This document shows, piece by piece, positions 1 through 33,927 of a stretch of DNA of 64,000 nucleotides (position 1 is the first letter of the stretch; the number at the start of each line of letters is the position of its first letter). A program made the translations under genes and the position numbers. The notes beneath the pieces were generated by a model that had not been told where the DNA came from, ran no database searches, and saw nothing but the letters and a program-made list of their open reading frames with translations. This DNA comes from Isoetes taiwanensis (Eukaryota; Streptophyta; Lycopodiopsida; Isoetales; Isoetaceae): positions 560,187 to 624,186 of the forward strand of contig JAJEKV010000110.1 of NCBI GenBank assembly GCA_021234155.1. The letters are read 5' to 3'.

Positions 1-2
1 TA

Positions 3-2349: not shown

Positions 2350-3240
2350 TAATTAAATCGTGCTTACATGTGCTGCGTACAACTTGCGAACTTGAAGCAC
2401 CCTGACCCCATCTTCATTCTTTGGCGGTCGCTTGATAGTGCTTAAGGATAAAGAGATTGTTTGTTTCAGAAGCTTTGAATCATTCACACGTTTCAATATT
2501 GCACTTGATTTGTCTGAGGGTTTCATGACAATATCTGCCCCTGGAGCCTTCTGTAATGCTTCTGCTGATTCTCCAATAGTCAATTGTTTGGTCTTCCTTG
2601 ATTTTTTCGTAGGAGGCTCTGTGGTGGTGACCAAAGCGTGCCGTTTTCCTTTTCCTTTTGCCACAACTTCCTCCTCCTCTTCCTCTTCTTCTATCTCCTC
2701 CTGGTCCCTTTCTATATCTTCAACAGTACGTGGGTACCAGAGACCCTTCACAAGAGCTTTATCAGGACAAAGAATAACGGAGGATAAAATGTCTACTATA
2801 TCCTGCAGTCAAGCAATCTCAGTTAGCGTTCCTTGTGTATAAATTTATACGAGAAAGCAATGAACAAAAGAAAAGAGGTCATAGTACTCACGTAACCAAG
2901 TTTGTTATTCTCGGAAATGTACTCATACACATCTTTTGGCTTGCACATGCTTATTCTGAACATTGTAGTGTTCAAGCTGTACACAACCTCCCCTTCGTCA
3001 CTAATGCATGTCATATTAACTTCATCGTCGATGTGTGAAGCCACCAGACTTGTCATTTCTCCAGCTGGGTAATAATCATCTGCCTTAAACTTGGCCCTTC
3101 CTGTCTTGTGGCAAAGGTAAAGGTATGAATCAGTGGGGTAGCGTTCCCTAGCGCCCCTGTGTGTGTGCCATGTCACATCTCTGAGTTTGTAGGACTTTGG
3201 CTGTGGAGGTGGTGGCGGATTTTTGACTTTAAGTGTTATC
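2350..3240 (-). pseudogene. Module A: truncated ParB-like gene (N-terminal exons only)
   Basis: Two exons are visible on the minus strand. The upstream one (about 3235-2894) has a PPPPPQP run and reads through TDSYLYLCHKTGRAKFKADD and MCKPKDVYEYISENNKLGYV to a GTGAGT donor. After an intron containing one module-A palindrome (2837-2850), the second exon (2802-2368) starts DIVDILSSVILCPDKA. It has a run of acidic residues, a lysine-rich stretch (TKKSRKTKQ), and ends LQVRKLYAAH at a GTAAGC donor. The module-B paralog has the matching sequence LQVRKIYADH and continues into the ParB-like core, which is absent here. The gene is therefore cut off inside its next intron. The product is probably nuclear (basic stretches). 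Function is inferred from the paralog. Confidence 0.6.
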
Positions 3241-3453
3241 TTTTGGCTGAAAACGCACGAAAATCAGGCTTAAACACCGTTGAAAAAGGCAATAACACCA
3301 CTTTCTTTTGTAATTTTGTACTAAATATGTTGTTTTTGAGACGCTACTTTAGGTGTTATAACACAGCTTTTTCCCGTGATCTAGCTCTAAAAACACTGTA
3401 AATTTACAAAAACTGTGTAATTTCTTACCATTTTTTAAAGTTCTTAGCCTTAT
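3241..3453. other. Start of the divergent intergenic region of module A
   Basis: Non-coding or 5' intron sequence of the minus-strand gene; a likely acceptor TTTTCAG lies at its left edge. No other feature is seen. Confidence 0.35.
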
Positions 3454-4180
3454 CGGTATAAATTTATACCGAAAGAGGTCTCCACGGTAAAAATTTCTAC
3501 CGCAGAGTAACCCGCGGTATAAATTTATACCGTGGAGACCTCTTTCGGTATAAATTTATACAAGTTCGGCCTCCTGCTCGGTATAAATTTATACCGAGAA
3601 GAACTCACACGGTACAAAATTATATCGGGAGACGTCTTGCGGTACACCTCTACGCAATACATGTTCAGACCCGGTATAAATTTATACAGATGGGGTTCAG
3701 CCACTGTATAAATTTATATAGAAAGACCACGACCTAGAGAATGTCTAAACTTCTAAAAAAAAACTAAACTTGAAATGGTACGGGTTAGAAACTTACGTGG
3801 CCATGTCCGTATGAAGATCCTTATAGCTGCTGGAAGCCGAAAAAAAGGGCAAGTATAAAAGGCGGATCGCGAGCGCCTTCGAGCCAAGCCGCGTATACAG
3901 AAAATGAGCTCGCCTCCGCCTACCTTAAGTAGTATTTCCATTTGCTATTTCGTATATTTTCTGTCTATATGTTTATACATACAGCGATCTAAAGTTTTCG
4001 TATCAATTTGTATGCTTTCTGTATAAATTTATACCACTCTTGTCTCTTGTGCTTCTGCTCGGTATAAATTTATACGCTCCTTGTTTGCTTCCACTTTGCC
4101 ACTGTATAAATTTGAAGGCTTTTGGTATAAATTTATACCACTCTGCCTCTTGTGCTTCTCCACGGTATAAATTTATACCG
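3454..4180. repeat. Array of 16-18 bp TATAAATTTATA palindromes between divergent genes (module A)
   Basis: Perfect or near-perfect copies of CGGTATAAATTTATACCG occur at 3454-3471, 3485-3502 (two changes), 3515-3532, 3546-3562, 3579-3596, about 3610-3627 (degenerate), 3672-3688, 3704-3721, 4021-4034, 4060-4076, 4103-4113 (half site), 4123-4140 and 4162-4180. One more lies in the minus-strand intron at 2837-2850. Spacing is irregular. The copies at 3454-3562 are nested in a larger inverted repeat: arms 3454-3502 and 3515-3562, with the 13 bp connector AAAGAGGTCTCCA inverted between them. They fill the interval between the two divergent genes and stop about 20 bp before the plus-strand ATG. Either subterminal transposase sites or operators of a shared promoter would fit. 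Confidence 0.9.
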
Positions 4181-4200
4181 TCTGTGCCAGCGAGCTCACT

Positions 4201-7200
4201 ATGGCTGGAGAGAAGAGAGCGTCCGAGCCACCCCGTCCTGCTCGCCGGCTACCTCCACCAATGGTTTTCACACCAGCGGTTCCTGCTGGCCAGGAAACTT
4301 CTGACTCTGACACTCAGATCCTGTGCTTCGTTTGCCACCACCCATGCATTTCACTCCTCCAGAACACCCACCCAATCGTTTTACTCCAGCCGATCCCAGA
4401 CTCCCTCCTCCCGTTATTTTTAGTCCGTCTCCCTTGGTTCAGCCTAGACAGCCCACACGGTCGCAAATGACTCCAACACCATCCGTTGCACTGCAGGATG
4501 CCACTCCTAGTGAAAGTAGTCAGCACCATGCTACTCCTGTGTTTTACGAGACTTCTGGAGCTACTCAACTACGTCATCCGCCTCGACTTCTTTTTCCAAG
4601 GAAAAGGCAAACTTCTTCCACACAGGATCAACGTACACCTAGTCTCACTGCATCGACAAGTACAACGCCAGTTCCTATAATGTCGGATGAAGAAACACCT
4701 CATGTTGATATCTCAGACGAGGACCTGCCAAAGCCACAAGACTCTATGTTCGAATTCAAAGCTCCTGCAAGTAAGAATCTTAAGCGAAACTTACACAAGA
4801 AAGCATGTACAACCGTTAGAAGAAAGAAACTTATGGACGAGGCTCACTTGAGGGCAACACATACAAAGCACTGTTGTTCTCAACGTTGTATGCTTAAGAT
4901 TGGACTAAAGGAATTGAGGTTGATTCGTGATAGTTACAGTTCAATGACTCTGCTAGACCAAAGGGGCTACTTGGCCTTCAATATTAGGCCAGATTGTGGT
5001 GAGAAGTTTAGTTACACAGCTGGTGGCCACACCGTCTGTCAAACGGCCTTCAAATTGATTCATGCTTTAGGCAGCAGACGACTTGACCGCCTGAAGAAAA
5101 GGCTTGACAAGAATCCAGGCATCAATGACTACTGCCATTCAGGAGGCATAACCAGAGTTCATGCCCTTCAATGTGTTTCCTGGATGGAAGGTTTCTTTAA
5201 GGAGTCTTGTGAGAAACTCCCTAACAGCCCTATGTACCACTTGAGTGACAATTTCACGAAACAAGAAGTCTACGATAATTATAAGGAGATGTGTGTTGAG
5301 GCTGGAGAACGCTATGTCTGCTACTCTTACTTTACTGTGCTCTGGAAAAAAGAGTTTTCTCGCGTGTCCATTCCTAGAAAGCATAGGATGTCTGTTTGTG
5401 CTACATGCTCTGAATTAAAAGCTCAGAGACAAAATGCAAGGACACTTCACACTAAAAGTACGCTTCCAGGACGTGTTCTTGCCTAGTTCTACTTAAAAGT
5501 AGGTTCTTTCCTAAACTTGTTTTCATTTAAGATGCATTGAAAGAGAAACTGAACAAGCACAGAGAACAACAATCCTTAGAAAGGAGAAAATTGACAAAAC
5601 ATAGGAAGAAAGCACTGGAGCAACCACTCAACTACATATCGGTTGTTATTGATGGAATGGACCAGAAGAAGACCACCCTACCACACTTTGTCAATGTGCC
5701 TAAGGATGCTGCTGAAGAAGATTTCATACACCTGCATGTTGTTGGTGCTATGGTATTTAATGGAAAGCTATCTTGCAAGGCATTTTTGAACTATCCAAAC
5801 GTTCATGCTGATCCAAATCTGACTATCACAATTTTGAATAAGCTTCTTTCCAATCTAGAACATATACCACCGGTTCTGTACCTTCAGCTAGACAACACGA
5901 CAAGAGAAAATAAGAATCAAGCGTTGTTTGCTTACTGTGCTATGCTAATTGAGAAACAAATCTTCAAGAAGGTGAAGATTGGTTTCCTGCTTGTTGGTCA
6001 TACACACGATCAAATTGATCAGATGTTCAGTAGGTTCTCTAAACGTCTTGCTCGAAAAAAAGCGCTCAGTCTACCAGCAATGATTGAGGTTATCCAAGAT
6101 TCTTACAATCCTCATCCAGACATCGAGTTATTAGAAGAAACTTATGATTTTAAGGAATGGATTTTTCGGAGAGATCAACTAGGTCACTGTGCTATTGAGC
6201 CCTTGAGAAACATTACATTTCAGCATCAGATTAAAATTTCACTTGTAGATGGCAAGGCCATCTTACAAGGAAAGAAATATGCCACATCCTTGCAGTGGCA
6301 GCCAGCAGCAGGTATTCAATTCATTCGCACCATCCCCAATACTAGTTCCATGCTCTCTGCAGAGCAAATGCCTCTAAAAAGCTTGAAAGAAATCACAAAG
6401 AGTAAAAAGGAGGGAAGAGCATTTGACTCAAACAAATCATTGGATTATATTGAGACAAGTATTCAGTCCTGCTCTAACCACTTTGGGGAGGCAGATGCTT
6501 TATGGTGGCCTCAGTTTTTTTCTCGGCAACGTGACATGTTGCAAGCTTCATTACAAGGTCGAAGACCAGTTACATTCAACTGGCCATCTAGGCAAACTCT
6601 CCCTGTGCAAGTTGAGAATCAAGAGGAACAAGTAGAGATATTGGCTAGCTCAGATGAAGATGACAGAGCCATGTACACTGGCCCCAGACGCACGGCACAA
6701 CAAGTTGCTCGGGTATCTGGTTCAGACTCAGAGATTCAGAAAGGAATGCTCATAGCTGTCCCAGCTGATAATGATGAATCTGGGAAGCCATTCTGGCTAG
6801 CTAATGTACTGGAGGTAACAAGAGAGGATGGAATTCCCACTCAATTAAAAGTGCACTGGATGAGAACAAATTTGCCGCCAAACTTTCGGTGGGAGGAGTA
6901 TACTTTGGAGATGGTAAAAAGCGGGAGTGGGAAAGAGAGCAAAGTCCAAAGCAAGCACCTATGTCATAGATCTAACCGAAGTAAAGGTTCTTGCATATGA
7001 CTTTGTTACGATTGCTTTGCTAATAATAAGTTACGTATGGTCACTCAAACTTTAATAAGGTTAAAACGTGGATTAGACAAACAACCTAGAAAGGTGGCAA
7101 AAAAAGATGATGATGAAGACTCACTTGTAGACAGTGAGGAAGAAGATCGTTCGAGCACATCCAGTTTTGAGAGTGAAGCTGAGGATGAAGGCTCAAGTGA

Positions 7201-7307
7201 TCGAGGGAATAAATGAGTGGGAGGATGAGATGCATCCCGATCTTGCTTTGCAAAATGTAAGTTTGTCCGATGACTTCGAACATGTAAAGAAACGAAAAGT
7301 GCGGTGA
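4201..7307 (+). CDS. Module A: DUF7869-type DDE-like protein, nearly intact with frameshifts
   Basis: The chosen start (ATG at 4201) gives a proline-rich N terminus with repeated LPPP motifs. A frameshift near 4310 joins the main frame. Residues further on carry a zinc-ligand-like cluster (HTKHCCSQRCM), HTVCQTAFKLIHALG, and CATCSELKAQR. A short GT-AG intron (about 5458-5531) leads to the second exon. That exon holds three acidic motifs typical of RNase-H-fold transposases: VVIDGMDQKKT near 5640-5670, LQLDNTTREN near 5884, and GHTHDQIDQMFSRF near 5998. These match what I know of the DUF7869 family. A C-terminal domain (KGMLIAVPAD, then KPFWLANVLEV, then LKVHWMR) resembles a BAH/Tudor-like chromatin module. 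Frameshifts near 6945 and about 7200 precede an acidic tail ending KKRKVR (stop 7305-7307), a probable nuclear signal. Inferred role: the recombinase/transposase of the module. Confidence 0.65.
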
Positions 7308-7343
7308 TGATTGTCCGTCAAAATGTCCTATATTTTTGACAAT

Positions 7344-7348
7344 TTTGT
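7344..7348. repeat. Left target-site duplication TTTGT of the LTR retrotransposon
   Basis: TTTGT directly precedes the TG of the left LTR and is repeated at 18464-18468 directly after the CA of the right LTR. Confidence 0.9.
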
Positions 7349-7938
7349 TGTTAGTCCTGTGCCTCCTGGTACAGGACTATTCATGCATACAAATGTACGA
7401 GGTCAAGCTCAAGGATCCTCGATTCACCCGCGGGTCAGCCATCAAAGGCTCAGCCCGAAGACCAAGCGGCGAGACCACGCAATCAAAAGCCTTGTGGGTT
7501 TGTCAACAAGAGGCGCCGCTCGGACAAGTGACGGCCCGTCACCGCCAGCGTCGGCGTCCGGCGTTATTCTAGGCACTTCAAGAGGCACCGCCAACATTCA
7601 CCTGAATTAGGCCTCCTTCCGAGAGTCGCACCGAGATCGGTCGAGTGTCTATATTGGGCCAAAGGCCATTGTACTATATATATGAGTAGAGCTAGCACAT
7701 GAGTTTTTAGATGAGTTTTGAGTCTTGTCTCCTTTGGTTTTCTCTCTATTGCGAGAGCTCATGTATGTTCATCATTGATATCAAGGAAGCTTATCATTTC
7801 CTCTCATTTGTTCTGTTTTCTTCTTCTTCTTCTTCTTCTCTTCTTGCAAATCCCGTGACATAGTCCCAGGACTCTCTGTTAGATCCATGGGTCCTCCTGA
7901 GGAGAATGTCTTCGAGTTCCGAACCCGGACCCCAAACA
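7349..7938 (+). repeat. 5' LTR
   Basis: Runs from TGTTAG to CCCAAACA and matches 17878-18463 over its length with scattered substitutions and small indels. It starts with a hairpin (AGTCCTG and CAGGACT around a short loop) and has a TATATATATGAG box near 7675 as a likely promoter. I see no standard tRNA primer-binding site directly after it. Confidence 0.9.
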
Positions 7939-8779
7939 ACATGCAGCATGGCAGGATTGATTCCATCCTACTTTCTTACATAGCCATGTATGTCCGTAAC
8001 TTCACGCCCGGAGAAGAACTCCTTTCTCAACGGCCTCTCGCTTGGGCGCCATCGGCCTCCGGGGGAGGCCCCATTAGCGACATGTATGGATCACCTTATG
8101 ACATCGAGGGAGGCCATCTTGGTCTAGGAGGCTCGGTCGGCGCCACCTACCCCTCGTGTCTGTCTCGTCCCAGTTCCCGCCCCAAAGCGTGCAAACATTG
8201 CTCACAACCTCGGTCCCCCTCATCACTATCGAGCCTTATCGGGCTCAACCTTCTCAACCGTACTTTCATACCCTTGAACATGCCTACATCCATCATTCTT
8301 CAGGGCCATCGCCTCTTCCTTCACAACCATCATCTCCCGGGTGGGTACGGATATCCACCGCGTCTCCTTTGCGCCTACCGGGAATATCCTTTCCCTACGT
8401 TTCCCCACTTTGCCCTTCCTGTTTACAACCTTACGGATCTCAAAACCAATGCTCCGGCTACTTCCGTTTCTCAACCGTGATCACCCCTTCATCGGGGTCC
8501 TTCGGGCACCATGCCACATCCAACTCAACCTCAATATCGTCACTATCTCTTGTTCTGTCCAGCCCGGCACTTTCACATCTACCTTTCGGACTCTGGCCGA
8601 CTTATCCCACCTTTGGCAACCACGAAGGCAAACCGTTAGACCAAAGTGCTCGGGCCCACATGGAAGAATTTGAGGCTCTAGCTGTCCTAAATGGTCATCG
8701 CAACCTCAACTGAAATTCCACATCTTTTCCACCACCTGCGTGGCTCTCCTCATCAATGGCTCATGTCCAATAAAAGCCA

Positions 8780-9950
8780 TTGGAAACAAGACTGGTCGAA
8801 ATGAGAACTGCTTTTACGTCTCATTATGGGACCACGGATGATGATCAACTTCATCTCAAGCAACTCAATGAACTTCAACAAGAGCCCACGAGTGCAGGGA
8901 TTTTTTATGCGGATCGACTTCACATTCTGCTAAGTAAGCTCAAGGAGTACCCCACCGAGCCAGTTTTGGTGCGGTTTCTCCAAGGACTTCCTCCGGCTAT
9001 TCGACTCATGGTGAATACTGCGTCCCCAAGACTTTGGAGCGGGCTATCGACCTGTCAATCACTTTCGATCCAATGTTTCCTCCCGAGGCGTGGCTCTTCA
9101 AGAGCTCCCGTTCATTCCACTGTCATGGTTCCACAAACGGCTGTTTCAGCCTCAACACGCTCATCCATTGTTGATCCAAATCTGGTGCCATATTTGCAAA
9201 TACCAAGGCCATTTGGCAAATGAGTGCAACTCCACCAATGGCCCGCCTCATTGCAAGCGATGCAACATGTGCAATCATGCCACGGGAAGAGTGCACTTTC
9301 GCACTCATCCCACACCGTTCCGCAACAAAATGGTTTATCAAGTGCAAACCACACCTCAGCAACAATCGCACTATCAGCATCCACCACTTCAGGTGCAACC
9401 CACTCAACTCTATCAGCAACAGGAGCAACCACGGGGATCCAACCCACGTCCTCCTTTTGATCCTTCTAAAGCTTCGATGTTATCCTTTGTCCAAGAATGG
9501 GGTCATACCACCACGGCGTGTCCTCAACTTCCACAAGTTCAGGTACAGCTTCCTGGCACAAATCAGACCACCTCGGTCCGCCTCACGGCTTACCAACTCT
9601 GGATTGCTAATGGCAAACAAGGCCCGAGACCAGTTCTTAAGAAGCCACCAAGAGCGCCTCAGCAATCACGCTATCAACCAGCTCCAACAAATCAACCTCA
9701 GCTGGATCAACAAGCACAAGAGGAAATTTTTTGGGCACTTAATCCTCCAGTCCAAATAGTCAAATTGGGTTGGTTTAGTTTCACGCCCGGACCAAGGCAT
9801 CCGTCCCTTGACCATTATTCAATGGTAATTGCGCCACCCGCCTTTGCGGTTGACACCATTCCTCATGAGGACGAAAAAAGGTTCACTTTGCACCTGACTT
9901 GGCGAAGCTCATGCCACATGTCATGCCAAAAGTTCGCCAAAGCATTTTGA
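8780..9950 (+). pseudogene. Retrotransposon gag with CCHC zinc knuckle, frameshifted
   Basis: The frame at 8780 contains a retrotransposon-gag-like helical stretch (LKQLNELQQEP, then FLQGLPPAIRLMV). After a frameshift near 9030 a zinc-knuckle-like HICKYQGHLANEC appears near 9190, followed by a glutamine- and proline-rich region. In Ty3/gypsy elements gag forms the particle and the knuckle binds RNA. Several stops and shifts make it non-functional. Confidence 0.65.
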
Positions 9951-10339
9951 ACCTCATGCAAGGCTGCTTGAAGGCCGCACATTGGCAAATGTTCATGCCA
10001 CCACCGAGCTCAACAAAGACAAGATACCCCTTCCACATCTCAACCTCCACGCTCTCGGGCGTATCCCAATATTGCTGCCGAGGTTGACTTACTCAAAAGA
10101 AGTTCTTTGCTTCACTACCACGCACTCCAAAGCACCGTGGAACCCGCAGATCCTTTTTTCTCATGTGCCTCTAGAACTCCAAGAGGAGCTAGCCAAGATC
10201 AAAATTCCTTTAAGCTTGGCAACCATTTTGAAACTCGTCACTGCTCTCAAGGACCGGTTACCACTCCCAACCTGTTTTTAGTTGGGGTCGTAATACCTCT
10301 ACACCCACGGTCCATGCCACGGTGGGTAATCGCCAAGTC

Positions 10340-10640
10340 AACCATGTTCAAATAGATGGAGGTAGCGCTGATCAATCTCATCACGGATAAACTCATGAAC
10401 AAATGGGCATCACACAACTCTTTTCGTGCCCCCATATGACATCAAATTGGCTAATGGCCATATCCACGCGACCTCAAAGGCGTCACACCTCTTCTTCACA
10501 TCAACATCGGTGATCTCGGCTTCCCCATGGAATTTGGAGTTTGGAAAGTCTGGCGAAGATCCGGTGACTATGAAATGTTGGTCGCGGACCTTTTCTCCGC
10601 CGGGCAAAGAGTATCCATTCTTGGGGCCGCGGACCAGGTT
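10340..10640 (+). pseudogene. Retrotransposon aspartic protease remnant
   Basis: Near 10348 a VQIDGGSAD motif stands where retroviral-type proteases have D-[ST]-G. About 70 residues later, in shifting frames, sequence resembling the YEMLLGRPFL end of gypsy proteases appears (10560-10600). Frame changes within it mean no working enzyme. The call rests on position between gag and reverse transcriptase plus these two motifs. Confidence 0.45.
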
Positions 10641-11339
10641 AGTCATCACCGATGGTCATCTCAATGCCACCATGGACTTGCAAACGGCGGGATCATTTCT
10701 GTGACAATGCGGAATCCTCTCTCTCGCATACGCATTCGGAAGAAGCTCGAATATTTATCAAGTTCGGGCTCCACCGCGAGTCCGCCTGTCACATCCTATA
10801 CCCCCAGAATATCGATCCTTGGGGAGAAATGACTCTTGATCGGACCAGTCGGGTCTGCTTTGCTTGACCCTTACCGCTCCTTGCAATCGAATCCAACGTG
10901 TTGATCACTTTTCAGATGCTGCACCTCCCCGCAACTCCCCGTTGATGTACCGCGCCTGTCATGAAGCAACCTCTGGCTGGATGAAACCGAAACCCCTCTT
11001 TTTCACCACGCAAAGTGCCACGATCCGTTATGCTCCAACCTCCGGCACACATTGTCGGGATACTGAAGTAATACCCCATATTCGGACTCGGTCGAGATTG
11101 TGGACGCCGGCAACAATCAACTTGTCGCATTCTTTCGCAAATCTTCCGGCTCCTTATCGTATCAGGGCCGCCAAGCTGTTCAAAAATTCAAACACATTTT
11201 AAGCACGGAGTTCAGAGATCTTCTGGGAATCAACAAAAGCTTGGGGAACTCACCATTCCTACCAAATCTGATGCACGACCCGATTAGCAACGCGACAAGC
11301 ATCGCTCAACCCTAATTACCGTGATCGGCGTCCAAGGCG

Positions 11340-12085
11340 GAAATTGACAAACTCCTTGCTGCGGGGTTTGGTCTATGAGGTCAAACATTCTCAATGGGTG
11401 AGCCCCATCGTCATTGCCCTCAAACACAATGGTAAGATCCGGCGTCAGTGTGGACTATCGGAAACTCAACCGAGCCACGGGCGTGATCATTTTCCACTTC
11501 CCTTCACGTACCGGGTTACGGAGAGGTGGGCTGGACATGAGATGTACTCCTTCATGGATGGTTTTTCGGCTACAATCGGATCTCAATCAAAGAATCTGAT
11601 CAACTCAAGACTACTTTCACCACCCTCGTAAAGCACTTTTGCCTACAAGGTGGTTCCTTTTGGATTATCAAACTCTCCATCAACGTTTCAACGCATCATG
11701 CTCTTTTCATGATTTCATGAAGGAAAATCCCTTCTTGCAAATTTTTCAAGATGACTTCTCTGCCTACAGTTCCATGGCTGACCATTTGGATAAATTGGAA
11801 CTCGTCTTCCAGAAATGTGATGAGTCCGGCATTAGTCTCAATCCTGAGAAATGCACCTTTTGCGTCACCTCTGGTGTTCTGTTAGGCCATGTTGTCATGC
11901 AAAGCAGGTATCACCACAGATCCTGCCAAAATCAGTTGTGTGCTCAAGGCTCAAGCACCAGCCAATATCAAGGAGACACGCTCTTTCCTGGGTAAGGTCA
12001 ATTATTACTCCACCTTCATACCTGGACTAGCAGCCATTGCGCATCCCATTCATAAACTCACGGTGGACGAATCCACCCTGGCTTG
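11340..12085 (+). pseudogene. Ty3/gypsy reverse transcriptase, degenerate
   Basis: Fragments in three frames line up with gypsy reverse transcriptase: VKHSQWVSPIVIALKHNGKIR, then VDYRKLNRAT and DHFPLPF, then YSFMDGFS, and finally KETRSFLGKVNYYSTFIPG at 11960-12030, the typical end of the domain. The YxDD motif is not intact; the matching place reads IFQDDFSAYS near 11745. The frames are broken at least five times. Confidence 0.8.
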
Positions 12086-12149
12086 AATTCCCGTAGGATC
12101 TTTGCTCCAACAGTCTGAAGCTTTTGCTTACTCGTGCACCGGTTCTTGT

Positions 12150-12556
12150 TCCTCCTCAATGGGACAAACCCTTTCACGCTCATGTAGATGTCTCGGCGTT
12201 TGCTATTGGAGCTGTTCTTTCTCAAGAATATGATGCGCATTAATCGACACAAACCAAATCGCTTCGCGCCCGTAGAAAACTCAATTACAGCTGGCGCAAC
12301 TATTCTCGCCACCGCGGGCGTGAAGCTTTGGGTCTCATTTTACGTGTCCAACGCTTCACATTACCTTTTAGGCAGTCAAATCAAGTTCTTTGTGGACCAC
12401 CAAGCACTCCTCTATTTGATCAACAAGTCCACGCCCACGGTTAGCATTGCTCGTTGGGTCCTTCTTCTCCAAGAATTTGCTCCTTTTGAAATCGTTCATA
12501 AGGCGGAACAAATCTCATGTCGTCCCGGATTATCTTTCACGCATCCACACAGATGA
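12150..12556 (+). pseudogene. Retrotransposon RNase H, degenerate
   Basis: Starts with HVDVSAFAIGAVLSQEYDA in one frame near 12180 and continues in others through ATAGVKLWV and IKFFVDHQALLYLINKS to RWVLLLQEFAPFEIVHKA near 12450-12505. This is the standard order of the RNase H domain of Ty3/gypsy elements. Confidence 0.75.
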
Positions 12557-13900: not shown

Positions 13901-14836
13901 CGTAAAGCGAGAATCAACAAACGATACGGTTCAAAGACGCAAACACCACGAAAAAGTGACTAGAAAGGCGGCATATTCTATTATAGTGGAGATTTTTTTT
14001 TTAAAATGTGGGCGCATGACCCGGCTAATTTCGCTATGGGCAATCGCCCCTATATACAAAAACGGGCTCTCGAGCCCTATCTACTAAGTCCTAAGAGGAA
14101 AAACCCTCTACTCGGGTTCGGAGCGGAGGTGATCTGGAGGAGATGGTAGAGGTTACGCTCGGGATCCCAGCCCGAGGTGCGTAACCACCTCCATCCCGTT
14201 GGTCTTCGGTCGGGATGTTCAGCCATCCCGCACACCAGCCCCATTCGAATGCCACGGTTGTGGCGCCGCCAGGGTCCGAACAATTCATCTTGCGGGTAAT
14301 CCACTCACGGCGGTTCGTGGGCATAGTGCGGTCCTCGTTCAAACCAGCGGCGGCCATATCTTGGCGCCATCGGATGCCTTCGTTACTCGGTTCGTCTTAT
14401 ATAGCCAACGAGGAACTCCTTGTCGGCGTGGACCAATCACACAAATCGCCAACGTGTTTGCAATGCAAGGCTATTTCTAAAATGAGAATCTTTTCTCCCG
14501 CCGCATATCTAGCCATGGTACCTTCTGACACATTCCTTCTAATGATATCCCACTTCGAGTTGCCCGGCATTGAATGCAATTTCTTCTTTTCACGCCCGTC
14601 GAACATTAATGTGTGTCCTTTGCCCACCACATCCGATCCTTCTTTCACGTCTCATCCTCACCGTTCATTGCTTCTCCCTTTACGTTTTTTGGGACTTAGC
14701 CAAATTTTTGCCTCTCAATACACTTGCTTGGCATCTTTTTCGACACTGGCACCATCAAGCGGCTCGGTTTACGCCCTCTTCATACCTCTTCGCCTCCAGT
14801 TGTGCGCCCTAAAAACCTTTTCGTTCTTCTGCGCCC

Positions 14837-17533
14837 TTGTCCTCCGTGCTCGACTTTCGTCCTCCGCCTTTGAATCACTCTTCGTTTCTGCAAATCGTTA
14901 CCATGGCTGCCCCAAGATTTTCTACACTTCAAGCTACTGCTCCCAAGGATCCGGCTCTTTTTGCATCTGTATCCTTCTTGACGCCCACTTTCCGTGAAGC
15001 CCTTGTTGGCCCAAATAAAGAAGTCGCTGAACGACACAAGCTTTACGAATTCTCTCAAATGGAACTTCCGGCTCCAAATCCTGACCAGTTGACCTTCGCC
15101 ATCGCCAATATCGTTAACGACCCGCGCCAAGCTACACCACTTGTGGTCGATGGCACCACCATTTTACTGACTCAACATTTGATTTCTGAGGGTATTTCAT
15201 ATTCCCTTGCACACCCCTTGTTTATCATGGTCTGCGCCATCGGAGGATAGTTTGGTGCACCTGCTTATCATGCCAATGTCCATCGTCTGACCAATATCGA
15301 CAAGCCTCACGAAACCTTTGTTAAATTTCTGTGGCGCAAGTTCCTTGGGTATTCTATCAAGAACACCCATATCAATAAGCCTTTCTATAACCTGGTCCTC
15401 ACTGCTACACACTCCAACCACCACATAGATTGGCCCCAAATGATGTTCTATCATCTTCTCCAAAAGTGGACCGCCTTGAGGTGCCACTTCCATTTCTGAA
15501 GTTTCTGTGGGAGGCCACTTTCAAGCCCTCATCCGTCATTACTTCCCTCCCACACCACAAAATTCTCATAATTCCACTCAGCGGTCCCTTCCAATGACTA
15601 ACCGAGCTGGCACTTCACGCCCTTCTTCCCCTGGTCATGTCCAAAGTCCGCACACCCATGTCACTGTCTCCTCCTCCGCTACACCATCCAGTTCACACCA
15701 TCTTTCCCAAACCTCACAAACCGGGGCAACGGCCCGGCTCCACCACCACAACACCCTCGTCGGTTGTTGTATCAATGATCGGCGGGATGCTCAAGTTGCT
15801 ACTCTCCGTTACAAGAATCCCAAGGCGCTCTTATGAGCGGGGTTCAACGGGCACTAGAGGCCTCGATGCGGTACACGGGACCTTCAAGCTGCCCTTTGCC
15901 CAAGTTGCAACTTTGGAGGCCAAACTTCAAGACAAGCACGAAGCTCTCTTACGGGCTCATACGGATCTCAAAAAGTGCACAAGATCAAGTCAGCCAACTT
16001 GCGGATCAACGGGCTCGGCTCAATCAGAAATTCAGAATTTATTGGAGCACAACAAGTCAAAGCCGCTCTCACGAGTACCAAGGGCCTTGAGATATTGCTA
16101 AGCTCAACGCCTTGTACTCCGAACTTTGTGAAAATTTCAGCACTCAAGTTCAAAACCTTTCAGCACGGGACGCTCAAGTTGCCTCCTTGACGGCTCAGCT
16201 TTCTACACAGACCTCTCAGCTCACCTCTCTTCAAGATCAGCTTACAGAGGTGCGAAAAAAAAGATCTTGGATGGCGGAGAGATTGCGTGCCCCGTCTCAA
16301 TACTCAGGAAATCCTCCTCCCGAGTCAACACTTCTCGAAAGCGGGTCCGTGACCCGATCCGCTTCTTTGCTAGAACGGGACAACCGGATACGTGATCTTG
16401 AACAACAGCTACAGCAAGCTATTCAGTCTGCTGATGAGGCTCAAGCAAAACTTGACGGCCATACCGCCATTCTTAACAGAATGCCTTTTGACTTCCCAGT
16501 TCCTTCCTGCTATCACGATTATGTGGTTGCTCGCCGCCACCTCTTCCTTTCGAAGTGGCATGCGGCCGATGGACCTGTGGATATTCCCCTGAGCAGTGCA
16601 GATTTTCTTCGGATTTGGCCAGAACTCTCCATTGAAGACAAAGGGTTGTGCTGTGCCCTTGTGGTCTTTGATCTCATACACTGTGCCGATCCCGACTTTA
16701 TCACCTTGAGTGGTTCAGCCCATGGCTTACATATTTCATGATTTCTATCACGGGTGATACAGGGAACACTTGGAAATGGGCCGCGCCCGGCTCTTTCGGG
16801 GTGACCCCAGCGTGCAATGGGTGCCGGGATAACAATCCATATCTTGCGGATCCTGCTCAGACCCAAACTCTTCATCAGGAGTACATGCCTGAGCTTGCCA
16901 ATCATTTGTCTCTCTGGCGGGCGGAAGCGGCTGCAACAGATAAGGAAGTATCTAGGACATCCAGGGATCTTCCCTATGCACAAATTTATATCGCAGCACC
17001 TCATGGGTTACAATCAATTCTGAGCTCACATTGGATAGCAAGGCGGTCCCCCACGGGATGGGATAGCCCTCCTGTCAACTCTCAACTCTCGGCTTCTCTT
17101 TGGGATCGTTGGTGTCAAGCTCTTGATCCGGATCTTGTCGATCAATTCAGGGAGACGCTCGGCAACCCATACGGGCATGGTTCCTTCTCCCTATGCTTCC
17201 CCTGGCGTACCTCCGCCCCGGGTTCTTAATTCTAATTGGCGCCTCCCTTTTGGACCAAGGTCATGGATGGTCATGCTTGGGATGGACACCACCTCGGATC
17301 TCGACGGATCTCGGTGGGATCCACGCTTTGTTCGCCGCTCACATTGGGAAGAAGGTGCCACTCTGGATACCACCACGAATTGGATCTACATTGCTAATGG
17401 CGTGGTTGGCAAACGGCCGCCGGATGCGCTTCATGGTCTTGACACCTTCTTGCGAGAATGCCACCACCTCACACGATCCTTGATCCATCTTCAAAGCGAG
17501 GATTTTGTGCTGCTCTCAAATGCATTTTGCTAA
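14837..17533 (+). pseudogene. Extra ORF(s) of the retrotransposon between integrase and 3' LTR
   Basis: Plus-strand frames continue after integrase for almost 3.9 kb. The segment beginning at 14904 (MAAPRFSTLQATAPKDP) runs cleanly to 15249. A broken proline-rich part follows, then 16112-16741 with a strong coiled coil (heptad-rich AQLSTQTSQLTSLQDQL and IRDLEQQLQQAIQSADEAQ), then WDSPPVNSQLSASLWDRWCQ near 17060. Athila and Tat relatives of Ty3/gypsy also have an additional gene here, some described as env-like. I see no signal peptide or clear membrane segment in this one and do not assign a function. Confidence 0.5.
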
Positions 17534-17868
17534 GCTCCTTAAATCGGCGGCGTCCCATTTTTCTTTGCAATCCGAATGCGATTAATGATTGCCTTTGGCC
17601 TCGGACTGTCTCCTTATGGAATGTCGGTACATTTCTTGAGGGCGCCCATCTTTGCCCTTGAAGACATGAAATGCGCTCTCGCTTTCTTATTGATCACGGA
17701 TCCACGCCCTTGGCCAAAACACTCCTCCGCTCTTCAAACCGCCCGGGGATCTCATTAGCCCGATTACCATAATGGTGCCCCTCCTCACTCCCGTGAGGAT
17801 CACTTTCGAACAGATGGCTTCCCGCCCTCGAAACACTTCCTCCTTTTTCTTCACTCACGAGTGTCGTT

Positions 17869-17877
17869 TGGTGGGGG
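17869..17877 (+). other. Polypurine tract of the retrotransposon
   Basis: A G-rich run (GGTGGGGG) lies directly before the TG of the 3' LTR, where second-strand synthesis is primed in this class. Confidence 0.6.
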
Positions 17878-18463
17878 TGTTAGTCCTGTGCCTCCTGGTA
17901 CAGGACTATTCATGCATACAACAGACCAGGTCAAGCTCAAGGATCCTCAGTCGGCCACGGGTCAGCCATCAAAGGCTCGTGAAAGACCAAGCGGCCGGAC
18001 CACACGCGGCCAAAGCCCATGGCCCGTCAACAAGAGGCGCTCGGACAAGTGGCGGCCCGTCACCGCCCAGCGTCGGCGTCAGGCGTTATTCTAGGCACTT
18101 CAAGAGGCACCGCCAACATTCACCGTCGGGCCTCCTTCCAGGAGTCGGCACCGAGATCAGTCAGAGTGTCTATATTGGGCCAAAGGCCATTGTACTATAT
18201 ATATGAGTAGAGCTAGCACATGAGTTTTTAGATGAGTTTTGAGTCTTGTCTCCTTTCAGTTTTTCTCTCTATTGCGAGAGCTTATGTATGTTCATCATTG
18301 ATATCAAGGAAGCTTATCATTTTCCTCTCATTTGTTCTGTTTTCTTCTTCTTCTTCTCTTCTTGCAAATCCCGCGTGACATAGTCCCCCGGACTCTCCTG
18401 TTAGATCCACGGGTCCTCACAGAGGGCTGTCTTCCAGGAGTTCCCGAACCCAGACCCCAAACA
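17878..18463 (+). repeat. 3' LTR
   Basis: Matches the 5' LTR end to end, starting TGTTAG and ending AAACA, and is followed by the TTTGT duplication. Confidence 0.9.
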
Positions 18464-18468
18464 TTTGT

Positions 18469-18804
18469 TCATAATTTTGTACAATTTTCACAACTTGAAT
18501 ATATCACTTCTTTGTCACTCTACTACCCTTGCTATTTTTTTTATTGCCCCTTTTTTGCCACACTTTATATAAGTAACTATTTTTGGTTCTAAATTAGGAG
18601 GATAAAAAATGCTGTTTAAAATTTTTGCATGTGAGTTATGTTCAATCAACCCCTCAAAAAAGGTACCTAAATTAACTAAATTGTCACACCTGTCACAAAA
18701 AAATCTAAAAAATGGACTTTTTTAAGGGAATTTTAGGGAATCTTTCAAAGATTCCTTTTGAAGTGCGTTTCCAGCAAATAAGTGCGTTTCATTTTAAACT
18801 TTGT
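18469..18804. other. Displaced right end of module A
   Basis: This is the part of module A pushed away by the retrotransposon. Its last 100 bp (about 18705-18804) match the right end of module B (about 24835-24922) in the same orientation: GGGAATCTTT, then ATTCCTTTT, then two CGTTTC-type motifs and AACTTTGTT at the edge. No gene. Confidence 0.65.
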
Positions 18805-18810
18805 TACATG

Positions 18811-18931
18811 CCTTCCTTCACATGGGCAATGTGTATTCCGGAATACACATTGCTTGTCTCTAGAATATCATTGTGTATTCCGGAATACACAATGCCCATG
18901 TGAAGAAAGGTATGTGTATTCTGGAATACAC
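18811..18931. repeat. Nested inverted repeat with GTGTATTCCGGAATACAC palindromes (module B left flank)
   Basis: Arms 18811-18852 and 18869-18910 are inverted copies of each other (about 39 of 42 positions) with a 16 bp loop. Each arm contains the perfect 18 bp palindrome GTGTATTCCGGAATACAC (18831-18848 and 18873-18890). A third copy with one change lies at 18914-18931. It sits between the end of module A and the stop codon of the module-B ParB-like gene and may be the left terminus of B. Confidence 0.9.
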
Positions 18932-18997
18932 TATCTACCCCGATGTTTTTGGGATTGGGACTCTAACGTCTAAAGAGTAAAGTTTGTGGCAGAGATC

Positions 18998-20699
18998 TTA
19001 CTTGTGCAATTCCTTTGACATTTCTTCTAGGCTAAACTCTTTATCAACAACTTTTTGGAGAAGCCGCTCCAGAAGCTCTGTGTCGGAGAAGCCCTGCATT
19101 TCTCGCCAGACGGTAATGGTCATTTCTTTTTTGGGCACGTCAGATGATTTTTTCTTGGCTGTCTCCTTGCCCTTGCTCTTTAACTCCCCTCGTTCGAACA
19201 TTGTAAATATCTCGTCCTGGAGTTCCCAAATCTGTTCAAAAAGATTTCACGTGAGATAGTTGATTTGTTATTCTGGAATACGTTTTGTGCTTACCTTGCC
19301 ATCTCTAAAAGCTAATTGGAACCAGTTATCGTGGCCAATGAGAGACTGCCTTTTATTGGCCTCGTCATATTTCAGGCAGCATTCAATGGCACACACCTCC
19401 TTAAGCTCCAAGGAAAACGTTGGCTTCTTCAGGTCCTCACCGTACTTTTCCTTGAAAATTACGTACTCCCTGTGCATGAACCGGATCTTGTCGACGAAGC
19501 TCATCTTTAGTTTGTACTCGTTGTCAGCATTGTGGGTGTTGGCAACGATTTTTGTTTCTTCATCGGTAAGACCACAGTAGACAGCGCAGAGGACGGAGAG
19601 GTACCTCGGGTTCTTCTTCTCTTTATAAAGTTGCCTTCTTGCCTTGAAGCTTTGATTTCCTCCCAAGACATAGTGAGTGTAGGTGTCTGCGTTTTCTCTG
19701 TCATAGTCCTGGGGGGTTTTGCACTGCTCCCTGTCAACAAGGACAACTATTGGGGCCACATGAGCATTTGGATTGCTCCTTATTCTGTCTTTCAGGTTCC
19801 TCAAGTGATCGGCGTAAATTTTGCGAACCTGAAGTGGCCTTTCACCAGCTTCATTTTTCGGTGGAAGCTTCATACAAGTGACTGGCAAATAAATGACACC
19901 TTGCACAAACTTGTGCAGATTAATCTCTTCCATTTTCTCAGATGTTTTATCAACTTTTTTTTCTTTGATAGCAACACCAGATGCTTTGCCCTTCCCCTTC
20001 TTCTTCTTAGGTTCCTCAGGAGCATCTTCTGCTGTAACCAAAGCCGTTTGCTTTTTTTTAGGCTCTTTAGCAGCAACGGTTTGCCTTGGCCGCTTCTTTG
20101 GTGGTGGTGACGGTGGTCTTTCTTCGGACTGTGATGGACTCCCAGATGGTGATGATGCACTGCTCGGGCTCTCTGTCTTCCCCTTGTTCTGACTCGCTGT
20201 AGGGGAAGTCCTCGCTCGTTGTGCTTCGAACGTAGTTAATGATGGCATAGAGCGACTTCTTGTTCAGGTAGTGAGAAACATACTTATAAAGAGGATGTGG
20301 ATTTACTTTCACCACTCTAAGGTAGGATTCATCAACATGAATAAAGCCTTGGGATGTCTGAAAAGACAGTCTCCCTACCTGACCGGACTCCCCAGCTACT
20401 TCACTCACGGCCTGGATGGTGTCCATGCAGACAAATTCCCTGTCATCGTACCTTTTGGTTCCAGGGCTCCGACAGACATGTAGGAAAGTAAGGGTGTTGT
20501 ACTTTCCAGAAGTACCCCTTGTAAAGAACCATTGAGTTTGGAAGTTTTCGTAGATAGTAGGCGCAGCTGACTCCTCAAGCCTTCTCTGTGGGTGCAGTTT
20601 CTGTGGGATTTTAAGGGGCCTCTTCTGTTGTTTCTTGCTGTTGTCTTGTCTATGCAAATTGTTTGTAAACACGACCTTGTTAGAGAAAACAGTGGCCAA
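18998..20699 (-). CDS. Module B: ParB/sulfiredoxin-like domain protein
   Basis: The 5' part (20699-about 20130) includes TFLHVCRSPGTKRYDD and YLRVVKVNPHPLYKYVSHYL. A frame change near 20130-20200 leads into a basic, proline-rich linker and then the core (about 19830-19430): LQVRKIYADHL, APIVVLVDREQ, YTHYVLGGNQSFKARRQL, LSVLCAVYCGLTDEE, ANTHN. This order (PI-V strand, GGxxSFxARRxL in place of ParB's GERRxRA, then a LTDEE..N.HN helix) matches the ParB/sulfiredoxin-like fold. An intron (19295-19232) separates the last exon, which ends MSKELHK with a TAA at 18998-19000. The true start is uncertain, since no ATG fits the left end cleanly. ParB-like proteins bind or cut DNA, or hydrolyse CTP, in bacteria; the role here is unknown. 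The frame change may be a mutation or a missed intron. Confidence 0.55.
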
Positions 20700-21275
20700 A
20701 AACTATTCTAGAATACAAAATGTCTTGCAAAAAGGGAAAAAAGAGGGCAAAAAGAGGACAAAAATGCCAAAAAAGCACTGCAATCTTGACAAAGAAACAG
20801 GTCTAAACAAGCTTTAAAGGCAGGAAAAACGCCTAAAATAACTAAAAAACTCATGGAAAAGTAACCTTTCGCCTTCGAGTGAAGGCCAAAGTGTATTCCG
20901 GAATACACTTTCGCCTTCGAGAGAAGGCGATAGTGTATTCGGGAATAAGAAACAGACATGCAAATGATTGTACGTTGTACTTTCTTACTGACCTGTCTAT
21001 GTTTTCTCTATGTGAATCGGAATACAGTCTCTGAATATTATAATCGAAGGCGCTGGCACTGGCGACCTGAGCTCCGAGACTGGAATACGCAACTGAAGGC
21101 GCCGAAATTTCTTTTTAAATGTATCATTTTCGTCTTGCTCTTTTTCTATGTGAAGCGGAATACGTTTAGCTTTACTATCCTACTCCTGTGTATTCCAGAA
21201 TAGCTTTTATTTTGACTTTCACTTGATTAGTACTGGAACTTCTACTTGTACTACGTGGGCGTGTATTCGGGAATA
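20700..21275. repeat. Palindrome and hairpin cluster between divergent genes (module B)
   Basis: One perfect GTGTATTCCGGAATACAC lies at 20891-20908. Variants or half sites lie at 20704-20717, 20933-20947, near 21013, 21073, 21158, 21187 and 21261, and one is in the intron at 19269-19282. Two 16 bp hairpins (GCCTTCGAGTGAAGGC and a one-base variant) flank the perfect copy at about 20871 and 20912. The position, between the ParB-like gene and the ATG of the DUF7869-type gene (21336), is the same as that of the TATAAATTTATA array in module A. Confidence 0.85.
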
Positions 21276-21335
21276 AGAAAAGCTCTGCACTACAGAAAGT
21301 TTCTCAAATCTCTTTACTATTTTGCAGTTGTTAAG

Positions 21336-24300
21336 ATGACGAACCGCTTCGTGAACAAGCTTCCACCACCTTTTGTTGTCTCAAGCTCGTCTAGTTCTGA
21401 GGACACGCTTGGGAACAACGTCATTTCTAGTGAAGACCGGCATTCTCCGACTCCTACCTCTACTTCATCGTTGTTGCTTCTCGAAGACACACCGAGTCCA
21501 GCACGTAACAGACTTCCACCACCCTTCCAACCGTCACCAAGTCCTGTAGACAGCACACTGGCATCTCCTTCCAAAGCATCACCACCAGTTCGGAGCATGT
21601 TGCCACCACCCTTTGTTCCATCCCCGGGACCACCTACAGAAGCTCCACAACAATGGGTGTTCAAGAACAAGCTACCCCCTCCCCCCCCTCCCATTTGTTG
21701 CTTCGCCCCCTTCATCCAAACATACAAGGAACACAGAAAGTAAAGAAGACTGTGAGATTCACTACAATTTCTCTCACCAGGACTTCACTATAAATGAGGG
21801 CGGCTCCGGCATGCACTCCTCTTCACACAACAACGGTTGTGACACATGGATTCTTGAGAATTCGATCCGCTCTAAAGGAGATGTTTGCAAGAACTCCTTT
21901 TCAAGATGGTACAAAAACGGTGATGCCACAACCTCTTATGGGCCATCACCATCCTTTAACACTTGTACCCCAGCCTATTCCGGAACAACTTCCGTGGTCT
22001 GTTTTCCTCTACAAGCACACCACTTTCGGGACGAGGAAGTCACCCCGAGTAGAAGTTTCATCGAAGATGAAGACACCAACGAGGAACAAAGAGATTACAT
22101 GTTCTCGAGCCAATCTTCAAAGAAATTCAAGGTGGATTTTGGTTTGAGGGCTTGCTCCTCTGTAAGAAGAAGAAATCTTATGGATGAACACAAAATGATG
22201 AGACTTTTGAGAACTAAATGCTGCTCATTGGGTTGCATCAACAGATTTAACATGGCTAAATTACGAAAGATTAGAGACAACTTCTGGTTCCATGACATTG
22301 GCGGACCCGAAATGCCTACTTAGCTTATCATGTAAGACCGGACCGCAACACCTTCTTGCACTACATTAACCGTCAAGAAGTTTGCCAGAAATGCTTTATG
22401 GTTGTCCACCGTTTAGGGTCCACCAGAATGTCTAGAATACACAAAAGTATAGACTAAAATCCAGCAATCGATGATCATTATGGACCAAGAAGAGTTGTAA
22501 CCATGCATGCCCTTGCTGCTGTGTCATGGATGGAGAAATATTTTAGAGAAACATGTGAGAAGCTACCTAACAGACAACATGTATCATTTAACGATAACAT
22601 CACCAAAAAGATGTTTTTAATGAGTACAAAGAGACTTGCACTTTCGGCTTGACATCTCTTACTCACACTTCACGGTGTGGAAAAGTGAATTCGGTCTTGT
22701 GAAAATTCCTAGAAAACATAGAATGTCTGTTTGCTTGAGGTGTGCAGAATTAAAGAGTCAACGAGAAACTGCAAAGACAGAGGTCGAAAGAAGTAAGCTC
22801 ATGTTCTCCAATCTCTCACTTGTTTCAGAGAAAATGCTTTGACCTGATTTCTTCTACAGATATTGTGCAACAGAACCTTGCCAGACATCGTGAACAACAA
22901 GCGTGAGAGAAAGAAAGCTTGCCAAGCATAGAAAAAAAAAGCTCTTGAACGTCCACTTTGCACATATGCATTGTGATTGATGGAATGGACCAAAAAAACA
23001 ACTCTACCACATTTCTTGAACATTCCTAAAGATGTGCGGAGGAATGTTTTGTTAAGGTCCACCTTGTAGGAGCTATGGTCTTCAAAGGAAGTCTAAAGTG
23101 CAAAGTATTTTTGGCGTATCCAAACTTGCATGGTGACCCGAACCTCACAATTACAATTCTTAACAAGGTCCCAATGCGAGCAAGAGCAATTACCACCGGC
23201 TTTATCTGCAACTTGACAATACTACAAGGGAGAACAAGAATCAAACACTCTTTGCGTACTGTGCCATGTTAGTGGAGTTAGGGATCTTTAGAAAAGTGAA
23301 GCTCGGTTTCTTACTTGTAGGCCACACTCATGATCAGATTGACCAAATGTTCAGCAGATTTTTGCGCCTTAGAAGGAAGAAGGCTTTCTGTCTTCCTTCT
23401 TTAGTTCGAATTATTGAAGATTCTTACACCCCTACTCCAGTGGTCGATCTTCTTAAAGAGACTGCTGATTTCAGAGAGTTTGTTTTCTCTCAACGTTCAA
23501 ACAGAGAACAAGTTGTGAACAAGTTGAATGATCTCACCTTTCAACATCATATCAAGTTCTACTTGAAGGATGGCCAAAGCTTCTTACAGGGGAAGAAGTA
23601 TACCACAACTAAGGACTGGAGTCCACCAGAGGGATTACGCTTCCTTAAATATATTCCAGACACTTCCTTCATAGAACGTGCTGAGCAACTTCCTCTCAAA
23701 ATCCTAAGGAGTCCAAGCGTAAAGAAAAGTACCCCGAGTCATCCTTAAAAGCCATTGAAAATAGAATTTCCTCGGGCTTTACGTTACTTCTTAGAAGAAG
23801 ATCGGATGTGGTGGAGTAATTTCTTTCTCGAACGAAAAAATTGTTGTACAAAATATAGCTCTAAGACAGTTGCAAGAACCATTTCAATGGCCTAACACCT
23901 TCCATCAACCCCAAAGACCAAAGCGGGTCCAAGCGGTGCTACATTTGCACCTACTTGATGAAGACGAGGAGGACCGAGTCATGTACCTCGGACCAAGGCG
24001 CAGAATGAGCCTCAAGGTAATATCACGAAAATTGCCAAAGGTATGCTAATTGCTCTTCCGACCGAGGAGGATGACAAAGGTCGGCCCGCTTACGGATATC
24101 AAAAGTGCTTGACCGCGGTCAAGGAGGAAGGCTTAGTCACTAAACTCAAGATTCATTGGCTTGCAACACGCTCAGAAAATGCTTTTGAAGGTAGATATGA
24201 GTTAGAAATGAGAAGCCAAGGAAAAGGGAGAAAGTCCAAGAAGGTGGGTTGTAGGGACGAGCTGAACCTTAATGACGTGACTATATTGTGCTATGATTTT

Positions 24301-24549
24301 AAATTGAAATCTGACAATCGTCTACGTCAGAAGACTATCGATTTGCTTAAAAAAGCTTGTAATTATGAAGAAGATGATGAAGAAGGTGGTGACAATGCTT
24401 CACCGTCTGTTGATAGTGATGAGGAAGATAACTCAAGCACTTCCTCGAGTGACAGTGAAAGAAGTGAAGGTGATGACGATGGCATAAATGAATATGAAAA
24501 CGTCCTGGATCCCTCTCTCGTCACTCCTCACACTTTTGCACATAACTGA
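21336..24549 (+). pseudogene. Module B: DUF7869-type DDE-like protein, decayed
   Basis: Starts MTNRFVNKLPPPFVV at 21336, with four LPPP motifs in the first 110 residues. It then matches module A through LRTKCCSLGCINRF, a broken middle (in-frame stops near 22321 and 22456), SWMEKYFRETCEKLPN, IPRKHRMSVCLRCAELKSQR, the first acidic motif VIDGMDQK near 22975 (frameshifted on both sides), LTITILNKV near 23145, and GHTHDQIDQMFSRF near 23320. The chromatin-module-like end (KGMLIALPTEED, LKIHWLATR) and acidic tail finish at 24549. The same intron position as module A lies near 22800-22860. At least five frame breaks make it non-functional, so any activity on B's palindromes would need another copy. 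Confidence 0.75.
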
Positions 24550-24922
24550 GTCTTAGAAAAAGACTGTAAATTTTGCATGTGAATATGAAGATTCTATCTT
24601 CAAATTTTGAGAATACTACAGTTTCAGTTACAGACTTACTTCAATTTTTTGTTAAATATTTTATCCTCTGAAATTAGAGTTTCTCTCTTAAAACATACTT
24701 TAAGAACATTCTATTTGCTAAGAAAAGTGACACTTTAAAAAGTCAATTCTTTAAGTTGCAAAAAAAAATTAGTCATTTGGGGGTCAAAATAGAATTTCAT
24801 GCATCCTTTTTTTTTTAACCTCGTTTTACCTCCTTTTTGTAAAAAAAAAAGGGAATCTTTGAGGAATATTCCTTTTACTCTCGTTTCAATGATTTGCTCT
24901 CGTTTAATACGCAACTTTGTTC
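24550..24922. other. Right flank and terminus of module B
   Basis: No gene. Contains A/T runs and a short near-palindrome (GGAATATTCC near 24864). Its last 90 bp resemble the right end of module A. The edge is fixed at about 24922 because the next base begins sequence shared with 33928 onward. Confidence 0.6.
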
Positions 24923-33785: not shown

Positions 33786-33927
33786 CAGTTTCTCTCTCCA
33801 TGTGAGTTGCTTGCTGGTTTTGAGAATTGAACCACACTTTGTCAATAACAGAGTTTGGTTTGTCTGTTGCATTTGAGTTGACTTACTAGATCAGACAACA
33901 ATATATTCACTCCTTTCATGTACCCCC

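Follow-up and report, generated by a model that had tools for sequence, protein, structure and literature searches.

Transposons that pair a transposase with a ParB-like DNA methyltransferase are already known in kind, because such a combination was reported in 2025 for Sola1-1_Ec32, a Sola-1 element of Ectocarpus; the available text of that report places the transposase on one strand and the ParB-like and DNA methyltransferase domains, the latter for N4-methylcytosine (4mC) or N6-methyladenine (6mA), on the other (PMC12477816). For similar proteins in transposons of green and red algae it cites Iyer 2011 and Petroll 2025, and it suggests that such proteins may bind, and modify, the transposon that encodes them (PMC12477816). 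Here we describe a locus of Isoetes taiwanensis in which a window of 64,000 nucleotides (C920:560187-624186, contig JAJEKV010000110.1), the whole stretch of DNA analysed, holds parts of three nested copies, E0, E1 and E2, of one DNA transposon type. This element carries, in order, a DNA methyltransferase and a ParB-like gene on the minus strand, a set of palindromes, and a DUF7869 transposase on the plus strand. Sola1-1_Ec32 differs in being a 21.5-kb brown algal element with a single fused 1104-aa protein, and palindrome arrays are not mentioned in the available text (PMC12477816).

The VANDAL elements of Arabidopsis offer a second comparison, since they have an accessory protein, VANC, and short motifs, specific to the element, that cluster in its noncoding DNA, and both protein and motif vary between families (PMC5735166). 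The Isoetes locus shows the VANC/VANDAL pattern of one noncoding motif per lineage that changes together with its element. The two systems differ in that VANDALs are MuDR-type elements (PMC12730594), that the VANC21 motif YAGTATTAY is non-palindromic and arrayed in one orientation, and that the available text names no methyltransferase or ParB-like domain for VANC (PMC5735166). DNA modification has also been described elsewhere: bdelloid rotifers use bacterial-type 4mC as a mark in a eukaryote (PMC8885841), and fungal DNA transposons with TET/JBP dioxygenases likewise carry an enzyme that modifies DNA and has been proposed to act against silencing, although that enzyme oxidizes methylcytosine and the word ParB is absent from the available text (PMC12730594). 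No paper on this land-plant element was found in the open-access literature searched. The locus adds a land plant host, complete ends, an empty site, nesting and a BAH-like domain to what is known, and its chief addition is the lineage-specific palindrome arrays.

Nesting, ends and target sites

The initial annotation described a two-gene mobile module present as two head-to-tail copies, each with a minus-strand ParB-like gene, palindromes and a plus-strand DUF7869 gene. It located the two copies, the order of their genes and the palindromes correctly; the arrangement is nested, not head-to-tail, and the module is more than a two-gene one because the DNA amino-methyltransferase is also part of the unit. 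E0 and a long terminal repeat (LTR) retrotransposon lie inside E1, and E1 lies inside E2.

The outermost copy, E2, has its left part at C920:547182-549269 and its right-hand part at window positions 18806-24921 (+), with a net length of about 8.2 kb. Its left end, C920:547182, is 31.8 kb to the left of window position 18806, where E2 resumes at an alignment break with a 4-bp overlap, ACAT. A further copy of the same genome (copy B, below) aligns to E2 up to L079:2168 and then again from window 18806, with E1 in between, and E1 carries its own terminal inverted repeats (TIRs), AACAAGGTTTAAAATGAAACGCACTTATTT and AACAAAGTTTAAAATGAAACGCACTTATTT. E1 begins at C920:549270, and its right-hand part occupies 2366-18805 (+), ending in the right TIR (18776-18805, minus strand) and followed by the E1 target duplication ACAT at 18806-18809. 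The right TIR of E2, AACAAAGTTGCGTATTAAACGAGAG when read inward, was placed at 24897-24921 (-) by comparison with other copies; next to it stands the target duplication CCTC (24922-24925), whose other copy is at C920:547178-547181. The right ends of E1 and E2 are homologous, both finishing with AACTTTGTT, at 18805 and 24921, and copies A, B and D cease to match E2 at 24921, the same point as its right end. Two other boundaries were considered and rejected: position 18806 as the true left end of E2, as copies B, C and D continue farther left into a part that holds the methyltransferase, and AACTTTGTT as a 9-bp duplication, as the homology of A, B and D runs through this end motif to 24921.

E0 is a third, diverged copy of about 10.1 kb (C920:552464-562551), recognized by its TIR pair and open reading frames, whose end fills window positions 1-2365 (-). 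It cuts the E1 ParB-like gene at 2365/2366 in opposite orientation, is bounded by inverted repeats beginning AAGCACGATTT (the TIR at its end at 2365 is AAGCACGATTTAATTAATTAGAGAA, read inward), and is accompanied by a 4-bp target duplication, ACAT, at 2366-2369. An assignment of positions 1-1868 to E1 was rejected; this stretch belongs to E0. The retrotransposon, foreign to the element, spans 7349-18463 (+), with LTRs at 7349-7938 and 17878-18463 that are 87% identical and a TTTGT target duplication, read from the sequence, at 7344-7348 and 18464-18468.

Insertion of E2 with duplication of CCTC is directly visible, because its two flanking sequences, put together with a single CCTC, align gap-free over 136 bp to an empty paralogous site at window positions 33850-33985 (+), within a duplicated stretch. 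Pieces of this local duplication beside E2 are 94-100% identical and lie at 24922-25715, 33926-34697, 34393-37620, 38067-38317 and 38574-41829; one duplicate of the region adjoining E2 provides the empty site.

Searches of the same genome (1.66 Gb, 1110 contigs) extended these observations. We examined four further copies, A to D, as 16-kb stretches. Two are complete, B (8471 bp) and D (8274 bp), with 5'-AACACGATTGCAAATTAAACGGGAG at the left end and AACAAAGTTGCGTATTAAACGGGAG, inverted, at the right; A is without its left end including the methyltransferase, and C is without its right end. The stretch read for copy A also includes, left of the element, a piece related to the LTR retrotransposon. 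DNA searches with the two element ends each listed 40 matches among more candidates, and from these we retrieved nine pairs of left and right ends with matching orientations, eight of them approximately 8-9.7 kb across and one 30 kb. Together with B and D, these make 11 paired copies, of which 10 show a perfect 4-bp target duplication (GCAT, TTCA, TTTG, TATT, TGAA, TCCT, ATAT, ACAT, TTGA and TATT); the copy on C1019 shows no 4-bp duplication. Such duplications accompany all three copies at the locus, and TIRs are present in B, D, E0 and E1. The proposal that this is a transposon thus stands, and a family of DNA transposons with terminal inverted repeats, about 8-8.5 kb long, is well supported. 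At least 123 ParB-like matches were found in the genome (123 scored of 4710 candidates).

Target duplications of VANDAL and other MuDR elements measure 9 bp, and those of the elements studied here measure 4 bp instead. Sola2 elements make 4-bp duplications according to the available text (PMC3627910), and the Isoetes duplications fit the Sola superfamily.

Coding parts and their recurrence

The E1 transposase gene lies at 4323-6997 (+) and is split into two open frames (4323-5483 and 5537-6997), probably by a short intron. Its second frame matches PF25273 (DUF7869) with E=2.7e-53 and 180.9 bits, where the Pfam cut-off is 26 bits. The E2 gene, placed at 21300-24549 (+) from its Pfam match and translations, has broken frames, and its fragment at 23266-23745 still reaches E=5.1e-23 and 82.1 bits against the same cut-off; E0 contributes DUF7869 fragments at reg 7591-7858, minus strand. 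Three acidic residues of the second E1 frame, D39, D119 and D161 (codons at 5651, 5891 and 6017), do not vary among the 15 proteins of one alignment. In a 68-row alignment that includes fragments, D161 is invariant, D119 is conserved in at least 90% and D39 in less than 90% of rows. The structure model of a relative has a DDE/RNase H-like fold followed by a C-terminal BAH-like domain. The DDE-like character first suggested for this protein is borne out by the modelled fold and the conserved acidic residues, from which we infer that DUF7869 is a DDE-type transposase; the so far unnamed DUF7869 family would thereby gain a concrete role. Transposase frames are broken in A, B, D and E2 and open in E1 apart from its tail, and E2-type copies may therefore be mobilized in trans or be dead.

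Proteins with DUF7869 are listed from a liverwort, a fern, a lancelet, a sea urchin, a brittle star, an acorn worm, a bivalve and a sponge. The named match with the best score comes from the liverwort Riccia sorocarpa, and Adiantum proteins are also among the matches; no relatives were found among viral contigs and no match in phages. One Adiantum nelumboides gene model (P0034) fuses an rve integrase domain with DUF7869 and was probably annotated across the boundary of two neighbouring transposons.

The ParB-like gene of E1 is represented in the window by 5' exons at 3240-2887 and 2807-2370 (2370-3240, minus strand), based on translations and on splice sites read by eye, and the remainder lies beyond E0, where tblastn places it at L079 5351-4292. 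In E2 the gene covers 18998-20699 (-), according to its translations: frames from 20699 to about 20160 and from 20248 to 19295 overlap in different frames, a GT-AG intron follows at 19294-19232, and the last exon runs from 19231 to 18998, ending ELHK*. The E0 counterpart lies just left of the window (L052, approximately 3680-5000), on the same strand as the methyltransferase and with the motif ISGNHSICAAQRLL; the core profile of the ParB-like proteins aligns to it with an hhalign probability of 82.7.

The ParB identity proposed in the initial annotation is upheld at most in part. NCBIfam TIGR03764 matches all four proteins of this genome with E=4.6e-4 to 1.8e-3, far below the curated cut-off (E2 protein, E=4.6e-4, likewise under it), and gives no match in the two second-source proteins (described below) or in P0121. 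PF02195 (ParB_N) produced no match at E <= 10 in any of six proteins or pieces, in a search whose HMMER filters drop most weak matches. The structure model is poor (mean predicted local distance difference test score, pLDDT, 44.4), so that structure searches with it are uninformative and the fold is unconfirmed. Alignment of the profile to two bacterial ParB proteins returned probabilities of 0.4 and 0.2, with 0.1-0.7 for five controls. A query against 5.8 billion proteins had none at E <= 0.001 among 1564 candidates, and a longer query had a single match at E <= 10, an Adiantum nelumboides protein. The ParB-like protein had no relatives among viral contigs, P0121 had no phage match, and the best plasmid match was an unannotated stretch with E=0.5. 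A sequence search of solved structures returned only Na/K-ATPase beta at E of 0.35 or worse, apart from a nucleoplasmin match (E=0.0012) that we set aside as low-complexity. ParB is thus a weak label, suggested by profile similarity.

The third coding part is, judged by its motifs and domain matches, a predicted DNA amino-methyltransferase of the N6-adenine or N4-cytosine type. Its C-terminal part in E0 lies at 906-1868 (+) and includes the S-adenosylmethionine motif VLDFFSAGTAS. The PF01555 cut-off is 26.7 bits: E0 stays below it (E=0.064; a 71-aa piece, E=0.014 and 15.7 bits), whereas a piece from copy D reaches E=3.8e-17 and 63.4 bits and a second-source piece 32.9 bits. Of the methylase motifs I and IV, copies B and D carry DLPY and DAFSGSGT, and C carries DAFSGSRT; pieces with the DLPY/DIPY half alone have no PF01555 match.

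The divergent ParB-like/DUF7869 pair is present in all three copies at the locus and in all four further copies. It also occurs in a second source: a scan of bacterial genome contigs identified eight DUF7869 loci (L001-L008) in a metagenome-assembled genome (MAG) labelled Trichormus. Contigs of this uncultured Trichormus record, CAKZGI (L001-L008, L014-L021), resemble plant DNA, some bear retrotransposon-like frames (L003), and, as the MAG label suggests, their probable origin is the fern Azolla, in which Trichormus azollae lives. Each of the five contigs that reach far enough upstream carries the pair together with methyltransferase matches; L001, L002 and L005 were left out of this count, as they begin 0.5-0.6 kb before the transposase frame. 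The expectation that one transposon type would recur, in another genome as well and with palindromes between the genes, agrees with these counts, the palindrome itself being a different one. Other MAG contigs (L009-L013) contain diverged DUF7869-like pieces of 22-47% identity, perhaps from other eukaryotes.

Palindrome arrays and a possible anti-silencing role

E1 and E2 carry distinct palindromes, motif A (GTATAAATTTATAC) and motif B (GTATTCCGGAATAC), respectively. Motif A occurs 10 times in the window, always within 2837-4178, and motif B three times, always within E2; neither appeared in 100 shuffles. One motif A copy (2837-2850) sits in a probable intron of the E1 ParB-like gene, an array with a period of about 31 bp, CGGTATAAATTTATACCG, fills 3453-3730 between the divergent genes, and a second group of four palindromes lies at 4021-4181, upstream of the transposase gene. 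In E2, the spacer that separates ParB-like gene and methyltransferase (18826-18929) holds two exact palindromes and a third with a mismatch, and others lie between the divergent genes (20888-20947). Across a 77-kb region, motif A was counted 18 times, exclusively in E1: the ten in the window, in spacer and probable intron, and eight in the left part, four between ParB-like exon matches and four unmapped to exons. Motif B was counted four times there, exclusively in E2.

The same placement recurs at other loci of the genome. Motif B was present in 29 of the best 30 of the 123 ParB-like loci, E2 included (117 copies; L035 is without it), upstream of the ParB-like gene and between this gene and the methyltransferase, and each of the 12 loci L023-L034 has palindromes downstream of its ParB-like gene. 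E0 has no perfect palindrome array; GCGATC is present 11 times in its spacer, where shuffled sequence averages 1.84 and reaches 6 at most. Two motif A copies (L056 4803 and 4996) stand about 2 kb outside copy B, which is of the E2 type, perhaps in a neighbouring E1-type element.

The second-source spacer holds another palindrome, with GTCGATGC/GTCGATAC half-sites in 22-23-nt palindromes, spaced regularly at about 51 bp in L006 and L007 and fewer and irregular in L003 and L004. All 61 half-sites of these four loci fall in the spacer between ParB-like gene and transposase. In the remaining four loci, the half-sites upstream of the transposase frame number 11 (five in L001, six in L005); one more is downstream (L001) and one inside a frame (L008), with no half-sites in L002. 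Palindromes thus differ by element lineage, and their type tracks the element and not the host, because E1 and E2 differ within one genome and the second source differs again.

We propose that these elements form a transposon family whose ParB-like/methyltransferase protein marks or shields its own regulatory DNA against silencing, a reading to which we assign a probability of roughly 0.55. The DUF7869 DDE transposase, with its BAH-like domain, would insert the element and duplicate 4 bp of target. The opposite strand would supply the ParB-like protein and the adjacent methyltransferase, as one protein or two, which might recognize and methylate the palindromes in the element's own spacers and introns, much as VANC binds its motifs. 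By marking or occupying this DNA, it could keep both divergent promoters active against host silencing, a role suggested by likeness to the VANC proteins. If so, the anti-silencing logic of VANDALs would have been built a second time, from bacterial parts. A more specific version, in which a lineage-specific ParB-like methyltransferase and its cognate array co-evolve in land plants and a 6mA or 4mC label distinguishes the copies and lets them escape silencing, is tentative, and we would lean against it. Plant use of 6mA or 4mC is disputed; an abundant family with a motif-bearing amino-methyltransferase and candidate target sites makes that question directly testable.

Of the other explanations, the one that survives best, although unlikely, is that the palindromes are transposase binding sites, comparable to the subterminal repeats of CACTA and Ac, and have no connection with the ParB-like/methyltransferase gene. 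Binding to internal repeats is common among transposases, and the arrays do lie upstream of the transposase gene. Yet the palindromes are internal and not terminal, which argues against end-binding sites: the nearest exact one is about 0.5 kb from the left end of E1, and 2 kb from the left and 4 kb from the right end of E2, and others occupy the spacer between ParB-like gene and methyltransferase. Somewhat less probable still is a function of the protein in transposition itself, such as methylation timing or ParB-like holding of DNA; palindromes are the points from which ParB proteins spread, and Tn10 is controlled by Dam methylation, but no exact palindrome is found at the element ends.

We consider it improbable that the ParB-like/methyltransferase gene rides along as a passenger and does nothing for the element, as might be supposed from giant algal transposons, which, in the available text, carry varied accessory genes mostly of unknown function (PMC12477816). 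Its orientation relative to the transposase is constant in three diverged copies, in the second source and in Ectocarpus, and copies A and B keep the ParB-like frame open though their transposase frame is broken. The ratio of nonsynonymous to synonymous substitution rates (dN/dS) of the ParB-like frames is also low, with a median of 0.17 across 19 copies of this genome picked for long open frames, a choice that favours intact copies (141 of 171 pairs kept, those with saturated or near-zero dS being dropped). Second-source comparisons kept 2 of 15 ParB-like pairs, whose values were given no weight; for DUF7869, 13 of 21 pairs were kept. Just as improbable are promoter elements for a host transcription factor, which the position between divergent genes would suit, but not the differing palindromes of E1 and E2 within one genome and a third in the second source.

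Other features of the window

Beyond the transposons, a gene for a LEA_2-type late embryogenesis abundant protein lies at 46009-47226 (-; PF03168, E=6.7e-12). An open frame at 36076-36660 (-) has a weak RING-H2 match below cut-off (E=8.4e-4), and a 297-aa open frame at 61237-62127 (+) has no Pfam match at E <= 1. A long pyrimidine-rich stretch of CCCTTT-type low complexity (56154-57595) yields spurious long open frames. At 59703-59745 there are approximately two copies of a 20-bp unit beginning AAACCCTAAA, which resembles the plant telomere repeat.
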